Assembly (NCBI GenBank): GCA_016342715.1
Contig: JAEINW010000010.1
Span: forward strand, 1-53,216
Source of the DNA: Salinivirgaceae bacterium
Lineage (GTDB): Bacteria > Bacteroidota > Bacteroidia > Bacteroidales > SZUA-534
Reading direction: 5' to 3'
Length of the DNA stretch: 53,216 bases
Below are positions 9,264 through 53,216 of this stretch, piece by piece; positions within the stretch are counted from its first letter, which is position 1; each line of letters opens with the position of its first letter. The notes under the pieces are model-generated. The model was not told where the DNA came from. It saw only the letters and a program-made list of their open reading frames with translations, and searched no databases. The translations under genes and the position numbers were made by a program.

Positions 9264-9349
9264 ATAGAACGCAGATAACACCGATCAGACTGATTTACAC
9301 AGATTTTATCCGTGGTAATCTTTATCAATCAGCGTAATCAGCGTTCTAT
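9264..9349. repeat. Long imperfect palindromic intergenic element
   Basis: The outer arms ATAGAACGC (9264-9272) and GCGTTCTAT (9341-9349) are a perfect 9-bp match. Between them, repeated variants of GAT, CAC and AATC can pair, including GATTTACACAGAT (9291-9303) with ATCCGTGGTAATC (9308-9320) at 10 of 13 positions. The whole 86 bases can fold as one long hairpin, and a T-rich run follows. It resembles dispersed palindromes seen between genes in many environmental bacteria. It may also act as a terminator for the M16 gene. Confidence 0.65.
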
Positions 9350-9394
9350 TCTTTTTTGTTTCAATTGAGTTAGCATCCTTTTGACTTTTGCAAA

Positions 9395-48878: not shown

Positions 48879-48909
48879 TTTGCAGTGCTATTAATAATTG
48901 CTACTTTTG
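48879..48909 (+). promoter_or_regulatory. ffs promoter (TTTG-N19-TACTTTTG)
   Basis: TTTG (48879-48882) and TACTTTTG (48902-48909) are separated by exactly 19 bases, a full match. The RNA would start near 48912-48916, which coincides with the first paired bases of the SRP RNA. Confidence 0.8.
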
Positions 48910-48911
48910 TG

Positions 48912-49017
48912 GGCGGGTAAGTCTTATACGACTAGCTCCTGTGGAATCCCCCCAGGTCCGGAAGGAAGCAAGGGTAAACGGTTGAGCGGTGCGATGTAAG
49001 TAGCTTACCCGTTTTTT
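48912..49017 (+). ncRNA. ffs: Signal recognition particle RNA, small bacterial type
   Basis: This 4.5S-type RNA binds Ffh and guides membrane proteins to the translocon. The diagnostic apical region 'CCCAGGTCCGGAAGGAAGCA' (48951-48970) holds the GGAA tetraloop and the asymmetric loop bound by Ffh. The closing stem pairs CGGGTAAG (48914-48921) with CTTACCCG (49004-49011), and a T-run (49012-49017) ends it. The small form, lacking an Alu domain, is the usual one in Bacteroidota. A consensus promoter lies directly upstream. Confidence 0.95.
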
Positions 49018-52015: not shown

Positions 52016-52627
52016 ATGCTAATCAAGATATATCCTGAAAACCCAAATGAGCGAGAAATTCGCAAAGTGGTTGAAATTCTGAAAAATGGTGGCGTAATTA
52101 TTTACCCTACCGATACGGTTTACGGCATTGGTTGCGATATAAATCACCCAAAAGCCGTGAACCGCGTAGCACAAATCAGGGGAATAAATCTTGAAAAGGC
52201 AAATTTTTCATTTATTTGCCACGATTTAAGTCATTTATCAGATTATACCAAACATGTTTCTAACGATGTTTTTAAACTTATGAAAAGAAACATGCCAGGT
52301 CCTTTTACTTTTATTCTTGAATCGAACAACAACGTTCCAAAAATATTTAAAAGTCGTAAAAAAACGGTGGGTATTCGCGTGCCAGATAATATCATTATTC
52401 GTGAAATTGTTCGTGAATTAGGTAACCCTATTCTAACCTCTTCAATTCACGATGAAGATGATGTAATTGAATATACTACAGATCCAGAATTGATACATGA
52501 AAAATATATGGACTTGGTAGATGCGGTTATTGATGGTGGATATGGCGATAACGAACCGTCTACAGTAGTTGATTGCTCTACCGAAGAATTTGAAATTTTA
52601 CGCCAAGGGAAAGGCCAATTGAACTAA
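52016..52627 (+). CDS. YrdC/Sua5-family protein (YciO-like)
   Basis: A 203-residue protein of the YrdC/Sua5/YciO fold. 'GGVIIYPTDTVYGIGCDINHPKAVNRVAQIRG' region near 25-56 is the family motif that binds nucleotide and threonine in YrdC. 'FTFILESN' and 'KKTVGIRVPDN' follow near 97-128. True YrdC makes threonylcarbamoyl-AMP for the t6A tRNA modification, while YciO has a weaker known role. The sequence resembles YciO (for example 'NFSFICHDLSHLSDY'), so I leave the symbol empty. It lies three bases after the aldolase gene, likely co-transcribed. Confidence 0.88.
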   Translation: MLIKIYPENPNEREIRKVVEILKNGGVIIYPTDTVYGIGCDINHPKAVNRVAQIRGINLEKANFSFICHDLSHLSDYTKHVSNDVFKLMKRNMPGPFTFILESNNNVPKIFKSRKKTVGIRVPDNIIIREIVRELGNPILTSSIHDEDDVIEYTTDPELIHEKYMDLVDAVIDGGYGDNEPSTVVDCSTEEFEILRQGKGQLN

Positions 52628-52841
52628 TTTATTCATAAAAATTAGAAATAATATTTATGTCAGTAGACAAGTTCATATGTACAGACGCAGCAATTATACG
52701 GGCTTATTATATGTGCAAATTCTGTCAGGAGCTACGCGCGCTGACAGATTTGACCTGACAACGTCCGAAGGTCTTGTCAGCATCTCTCTCACGAAATGAA
52801 ACTAAGTAGTTAACTACTGACCTTCTAATAATATTTATACT
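52628..52841. other. Intergenic region with REP-like hairpins
   Basis: No gene is supported here. The main content is the paired hairpins at 52721-52780, reported as a repeat, in a stretch that is richer in G and C than its AT-rich flanks. A bidirectional terminator begins at 52842. Confidence 0.5.
52721..52780. repeat. Two REP-like hairpins in tandem
   Basis: TCTGTCAG (52721-52728) pairs with CTGACAGA (52741-52748), and CTGACA (52755-52760) pairs with TGTCAG (52775-52780). The two arms carry the same CTGACA/TGTCAG core, so this looks like a paired palindromic element. It lies about 110 bases upstream of a decayed IS200-like transposase. Confidence 0.65.
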
Positions 52842-52879
52842 AAAAAGAAAAGCGAGGCCAACACCTCGCTTTTCTTTTT
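52842..52879. terminator. Bidirectional terminator
   Basis: AAAAAGAAAAGCGAGG (52842-52857) pairs perfectly over 16 bp with CCTCGCTTTTCTTTTT (52864-52879) around a 6-base loop. A-runs and T-runs on both sides allow termination in either direction, most likely for the YrdC-family transcript. Confidence 0.85.
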
Positions 52880-52884
52880 ACCTT

Positions 52885-53158
52885 GCTAACAATTGTCCAA
52901 TAAAGTCTAAGGTTGAAACACTATGTGCCATATACGCAAATCCTGAACATGTTCATTTTCCTTATTTCCAGGTCGCCCGAAATTTCAGAACAAAGCATAG
53001 CAACTATTGTAGCAAAGAGTAGTGAAAAATTTATAAATGAAAATAAATTGGTGGAGCAAGGAAAGTTCATGTGGCAAAAGTCGACTTCTGCTTTTTCCGT
53101 TTCAAAAACTGATGTTGATAGAATATGTAAATATATTTTAGGATCATTTCAACATTAG
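52885..53158 (+). pseudogene. Decayed IS200-like/REP-associated tyrosine transposase (Y1_Tnp)
   Basis: A fragment of a HUH transposase broken by at least one frameshift. In one frame, residues A-N-P-E-H-V-H-F (52936-52959) form the HUH metal motif (His-Val-His). In another frame, 'LISRSPEISEQSIATIVA', 'FINENKL', 'GKFMWQKSTSAFSVSK' and 'VDRICKYILGSFQH' run on from 52961 to the TAG at 53156. The latter match recalled IS200/RAYT C-terminal phrases, including the catalytic Tyr in 'KYIL'. The shift is one base between 52959 and 52961. The protein is also short at its N-terminus, and it stops at the motif that normally continues. The gene is dead. Confidence 0.75.
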
Positions 53159-53216
53159 GGTTGTTACGCATAAATCTTTGCTACTCTATACATGAAAAAG
53201 CTAGTATCATTTACCC

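Follow-up and report, generated by a model that had tools for sequence, protein, structure and literature searches.

Near the end of the analysed window, a stretch of 53,216 nucleotides from a Salinivirgaceae bacterium, two small palindromes stand beside a broken transposase gene, and the question that this locus raises is which enzyme placed them there. RAYTs are the supposed movers of REPs and REPINs, and there is continuing debate about the way in which these families spread and are maintained. The initial annotation had taken the palindromes for REP-like hairpins and the place for what may be a dead RAYT locus, and the structures on which it was based are indeed there. Hairpins H1 (52722-52747, + strand, arms CTGTCA..TGACAG) and H2 (52755-52780, + strand, arms CTGACA..TGTCAG) each have a pattern that occurs once in the window versus a mean of 0.01 times in shuffled sequences, and a comparison by eye of H1 with the reverse complement of H2 shows identity in 19 of 26 positions. 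Further downstream, the frameshift of the HUH transposase is equally plain, with a HUH-like motif (PEHVHF, approximately 52945-52962) encoded in a frame different from that of the C-terminal part.

A DNA search of the bacterium's own genome (G000, a draft assembly of 5.54 Mb in 358 contigs) revealed that the two hairpins form the centre of a 172-bp element that is repeated throughout this genome. The 8-bp sequence ATAATATT stands at 52648-52655 and again, in identical form, at 52828-52835 (no strand assigned), and the element therefore comprises positions 52656-52827 (+ strand). Its left end, TATGTCAGTAG, is worn relative to the consensus TAGAAGGTCAGTAG, its right end reads CTACTGACCTTCTA, and the open reading frames overlapping it encode only 32 to 40 amino acids, so that it has no transposase gene of its own. 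With window positions 52630-52900 as query, at least 40 further strong places were retrieved in addition to the window itself (85-97% identity; 40 of 109 candidates scored), and extra places, located either by the end motif or by the pattern of the hairpins, were added before a consensus was built. This 175-bp consensus matches, in whole or in part, at least 56 places in G000 including the window, with 83.6-100% (median 96.9%) identity. Of these 56 places, 37 extend close to both ends; contig borders truncate several of them, and two partial places may therefore represent one and the same copy. The copies start with TAGAAGGTCAGTAG or a variant and finish with CTACTGACCTTCTA or a variant, which are terminal inverted repeats as expected for a MITE, and the flanking sequences are unlike between copies.

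Target duplications are a feature of the family and not only of the copy in the window. Exact 8-bp duplications were found for 16 of the 35 copies that have both ends and enough flanking sequence, and 23 of the 35 agree in at least seven of eight bases; the remaining 12 fall below this level, which counts against the MITE reading. In 1000 permutations in which flanks were swapped between copies with the same free choice of junction, the sole control of this test, exact duplications occurred with a mean of only 0.03 (largest value 1), and duplications of at least seven bases with a mean of 1.1 (largest value 7). The duplicated target sites have an A+T content of 89%. In addition, a filled site on contig C70 could be compared with an unsplit paralogue on contig C83, where the empty site reads AAAAATTAAACTATGTCTC; TTAAACTA is found on both sides of the C70 element. 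The outermost bases of the ends vary among copies (TAGAAGG, TAGAGG, TAGG or TATG before TCAGTAG) and the inner GTCAGTAG part is constant, as if recognition of the ends tolerated changes in length outside a fixed core.

What, then, is the role of the transposase fragment next to the element? The decayed remnant extends over 52945-53158 (+ strand). The open reading frame at 52913-53155 scores 21 bits against Pfam Y1_Tnp (profile positions 56-118), just below the cut-off of 23, and 17.6 bits against the NCBIfam IS200 model NF033573, well below the cut-off of 55; NF033573 was the only NCBIfam model found for it, with no match to the model of REP-associated tyrosine transposases. If this were a dead RAYT locus, the hairpins would be REPs flanking, and moved by, the neighbouring HUH transposase, a reading that gains from the presence of a decayed Y1 remnant only about 165 bases from H2 and from the association of the hairpin family with RAYTs in related bacteria (see below). 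Yet the remnant resembles IS200 and not RAYT, the element including its duplications stops at 52835, short of the remnant, and a Y1 remnant is present in the fetched flank at only two of the 56 places, a number that needs no special explanation. Generation of 8-bp target duplications is not known for HUH transposases. Moreover, the best relative of the remnant in its own genome, on contig C352, is only 34% identical, and we rejected this fragment as the mover. We therefore consider a dead RAYT locus highly improbable, the hairpins having arrived within a MITE. The adjacent fragment, which is outside the element and for which IS200 is the best model, is by all appearances of its sequence an unrelated IS200-type relic, a neighbour and not the mover. 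Nor was support obtained for the accompanying suggestion that palindromes at 9.26, 17.4 and 47.1 kb could be offspring of related systems: they were absent from a scan for hairpin arms of at least 10 bases, and nothing in the window, its other palindromes included, matched any of four REP sequences taken from RAYT genes of the same genome when up to 22% mismatch was allowed. Decayed IS200-type genes are also found elsewhere in this genome; three stretches, L004 (C70), L006 (C83) and L007 (C114), are 98-99% identical and contain the same decayed gene with an inner GCCTGCC..GGCAGG palindrome.

On its other side the element follows a Sua5/YciO/YrdC gene (52016-52627, + strand; Pfam PF01300, 165.9 bits), the insertion being located on the 3' side of this gene. 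The order is thus Sua5-type gene, MITE, terminator-like hairpin and Y1 remnant. The terminator-like hairpin (52841-52880, + strand) is outside the element, has perfect 17-bp arms followed by T-rich DNA, is stronger than H1 and H2, and resembles an intrinsic terminator. This arrangement could also suggest a gene for a structured non-coding RNA between the Sua5-type gene and the terminator, all the more as the stretch including the terminator folds better than shuffled sequences (z -5.25). The element alone, in contrast, folds only modestly (z -1.77 as RNA, z -0.96 as DNA), and an RNA gene does not account for scattered copies with target duplications. As Rfam recovered no family at gathering score over 52600-53216, with only weak sub-threshold matches, and as the fold of the element alone is modest, we rejected an RNA gene, which seems extremely improbable here. 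In the relative G006, the locus inspected for an orthologous empty site turned out to contain no Sua5 gene. The terminator-like stretch AAAAGCGAGGCCAACA together with the sequence TTGCTAACAATT behind it (window 52841-52890) recurs 3' of a different gene in this relative (L025, G006:C1:142616-142643).

Evidence for the type of transposase that may recognize the ends of the MITE comes from other genomes. By a search for the end pattern in four genomes, an inverted pair of ends, TAGAGGTCAGTAGATAA and TAGAGGTAAGTAGTTAA, located 857 bp apart, was detected in G002, a member of the same family as the genome of the window. The 191-amino-acid open reading frame between these ends matches the NCBIfam IS1595 model NF033547 with 83.8 bits (cut-off 75) and scores 24.1 bits against the Pfam IS1595 zinc ribbon, just under the cut-off of 25.4; beyond this reading frame the gene seems to be disrupted by a frameshift. 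The flanks of this element agree in only six of eight bases. A relative of the G002 element with approximately 71% identity is present in at least four records of Persicobacter sp. JZB09. All three copies that were fetched are 969 bp long, have ends of the TTGAGGTCGGTAGGTAA / TAGAGGTCGGTACCTAA kind (TxGAGGTCGGTAG) and show an exact 8-bp duplication each, and their alignment places the borders at the same positions within two bases. A Pfam IS1595 search of four genomes, which missed the matching element of G002, led to two elements of this type, one located in G060 and one in G000, whose ends differ from those of the MITE although 8-bp duplications are present here as well. In the draft genome G000 itself, no intact parent with matching TAGAGGTCAGTAG-like ends was seen; its sole IS1595 match, on contig C122, has other ends and contains a stop codon. 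An end-pair scan of 319 fetched loci likewise yielded no parent.

Because similar ends bound an IS1595-type gene in the G002 and Persicobacter elements, we assign the window element to the IS1595-type MITEs. It is repeated in many copies, has inverted ends, target duplications and an empty counterpart site, and shares nearly the same ends with IS1595-type elements elsewhere. The feature in the window is thus very probably a copy of a non-autonomous IS1595-type MITE that was moved in trans and carries a RAYT-linked REP-type pair as cargo, and we infer that its movement in this genome was due to an IS1595-type enzyme. Such a DDE transposase, supplied in trans, would recognize the inverted ends of the MITE and would insert it at A/T-rich sites, generating the 8-bp duplication. 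The inverted pair of REP-type hairpins would form the core of the MITE and would spread as its cargo, without a RAYT carrying that REP in the same genome.

The designation of the hairpins as REP-type is based on their copy number and on their occurrence in other bacteria. In G000, H1 is found at 52 sites, far from being confined to the locus in the window, and H1 and H2 form inverted pairs, as is typical for REPs; a GT[AG]G tetranucleotide is not found directly at the foot of H1 or H2 when the flanks are read by eye. The 22-base H1 core pattern was detected in 42 stretches of a genome collection, several of which share one genome. According to their titles all of them belong to Bacteroidota or Balneolaceae, including Tangfeifania, Mariniphaga, Puteibacter and Gaoshiqia, and in many of them the palindrome stands alone or in an inverted pair that is not enclosed by the present MITE ends. 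In four of the 42 stretches the hairpin is an in-frame part of an open reading frame matching REP_Tyr_transpos, the sole NCBIfam match of these frames, with scores of 59, 47, 71 and 21 bits that are all below the NF047646 cut-off of 80, the fourth frame being itself interrupted. The H1 hairpin also sits inside other long open reading frames among these stretches.

A search for the RAYT family covered 10 chosen genomes, and H1- or H2-like palindromes were found in 10 of 50 scanned RAYT loci, some of them overlapping, in G002, G061, G064, G065, G066 and G067; none were found at the loci scanned in G000 (8), G058 (7), G060 (6) and G063 (3). These numbers describe an association and not a rate, because G064 to G067 were chosen for a hairpin within such a reading frame. 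After deduplication, a palindrome is located inside or within 300 bp of 9 out of 30 RAYT open reading frames, eight of which belong to a single clade of 13 rows in the RAYT tree. Clustering as tight as this was obtained in 2 of 500 shuffles of the REP labels, in 8 of 500 when variable-loop columns were dropped, and in 6 of 500 for a tree with over-eager trimming of the variable loop.

One could argue that the hairpins are mere internal structure of the MITE without descent from RAYT-linked REPs, either because the likeness is coincidental or because the REPs are remnants of MITEs. Indeed, all 52 H1 sites of G000 are located within element sequence that extends past the hairpins. This explanation is nevertheless improbable, since the H1 core occurs in the 42 stretches of other Bacteroidota, in many cases without MITE ends, since the pair is also present in a MITE family that has other ends (see below), and since both palindromes are held by RAYT genes of several relatives. 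Taking into account that none of the eight RAYT loci of G000 has H1 or H2 and that all 52 sites are in MITE sequence, the hairpin family, in our reading as RAYT-linked REPs, seems to be an orphan in this genome that travels as MITE cargo; a cognate RAYT could be located in an assembly gap. The REP-like character proposed initially is thus supported in so far as the hairpins are a repeated REP-type family linked to RAYTs in relatives, although no RAYT found in this genome carries that family. Four of the eight RAYT genes of G000 (L290 on C245, L300 on C154, L301 on C99 and L302 on C24) are accompanied by strong palindromes of a different type, adjacent to or within the gene and particular to each of them, and several distinct REP/RAYT systems therefore seem to coexist in the genome. 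The hairpin listing from which this follows left out the RAYT places on C206, C231 and C278, whose reading frames did not pass its motif filter; all three were covered by the scan for H1 and H2.

The same hairpin pair is found between different ends, TCAATGTCGTTTAGTTAA, in G058 and G060, where no RAYT with H1 or H2 was detected in the loci scanned, which represent a part of the RAYT places of these genomes. Among eight distinct elements bounded by TCAATGTCGTTTAGTTAA-type ends, five hold the pair and three contain other sequence, one of the latter (in G000) with CCCCTAAAGGGG-type palindromes. Judged by eye, four of the eight show exact 8-bp duplications and six agree in at least seven of eight bases. 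Between carriers, changes on both sides of a base pair were observed for pair 1 of H1 (C-G or T-A) and pair 4 of H2 (A-T or T-A); with little variation in most of the other 12 hairpin pairs, and with some cells unpaired, support from covariation is modest. An IS4-type parent was suggested by the ends of the second family and by the available part of an earlier report (PMC2266710), and was rejected as DDE_Tnp_1 places lacked these ends (four places scanned in G000 and four in two relatives); the mover of the second family was not found. Since the same pair occurs in two MITE families, one type of ends encloses differing inner palindromes, and the pair is present at more than 50 places with no cognate RAYT found, we tentatively consider it possible that DDE-type MITEs of Bacteroidota carry REP pairs as a cargo that can be exchanged and may have a function, which would amount to a RAYT-independent spread of REPINs.

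MITEs, IS1595 elements and REPINs are each already known. Longer palindromes that enclose REP dimers have been described for Anabaena variabilis and Halothiobacillus neapolitanus (species names expanded by us). As in the element described here, these REP dimers lie within a conserved longer inverted repeat, but the part of that study available to us names neither target duplications nor a DDE-type mover, both of which are supported in our case (Di Nocera et al. 2013, PMC3733652). The presence of REPs within RAYT genes of Bacteroidetes has also been published, for subclass 2.4 (Quentin et al. 2018, PMC6006769). As far as the accessible text of that work goes, our system shares with it the inverted pair of related palindromes and the in-frame palindromes in RAYT genes of Bacteroidota, and differs in that the pair in G000 lies between MITE ends flanked by target duplications, is carried by none of the RAYTs found, and lacks a recognizable GTAG foot. 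Compared to insertion sequences of the IS1595 family (NF033547, PF12760) and the MITEs derived from them, the window element has 8-bp duplications in common, and its ends are nearly identical to those of the IS1595-type gene in G002 and of the Persicobacter copies; it is distinguished by the missing transposase gene, the REP-type hairpin pair inside, and the failure to find an intact parent in the draft genome. The BrickBuilt MITE of Porphyromonas gingivalis (PMC4596501) and an IS982-type MITE of Cardinium (PMC9769881) are likewise short, non-autonomous elements with inverted ends from the same phylum; in contrast to the element in the window they are related to other parent families, and no REP pair is mentioned in the available portions of these reports. 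In the open-licence literature, judged from titles and the beginnings of abstracts, we found no publication in which IS1595-type MITEs are described as carriers of REP pairs. In the present case, an unrelated system of the DDE type would have multiplied a REP pair whose family is linked to RAYTs, the signatures of insertion being readable in the sequence. The location of a REP can thus be separated from the question of which enzyme placed it, and RAYT-independent spread becomes testable. It is also a warning that the nearest transposase need not be the mover.

Among 60 relatives searched, clear matches to the element were obtained for G058 (E value 9e-26) and G002 (1e-20); G055 shows a short end-like match, and the other relatives among the matches listed have short and weak ones. 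The element was not found in plasmid and phage collections, and the H1 pattern was not found in viral contigs. One copy in G000 (L093, G000:C72:13026-13340) has itself received another insertion, which is MITE-like, is bounded by TGTCTGTC / GACAGACA and contains palindromes of the TCATCGGATGA type; its end motif also follows a copy of the second family in L037. Truncated copies at L070 (G000:C114:1-440) and on C32, C330 and C48 share a different right side. Two of them, on C114, are separated by 259 bp, as if in a tandem arrangement at contig ends, but were not listed in a search for tandem repeats. Elsewhere in the window, a Bacteroidales small SRP RNA is encoded at 48908-49014 (Rfam, 96.4 bits), and a long imperfect inverted repeat, GAACGCAGAT .. 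ATCAGCGTTC, is visible in the printed sequence at 9270-9350.
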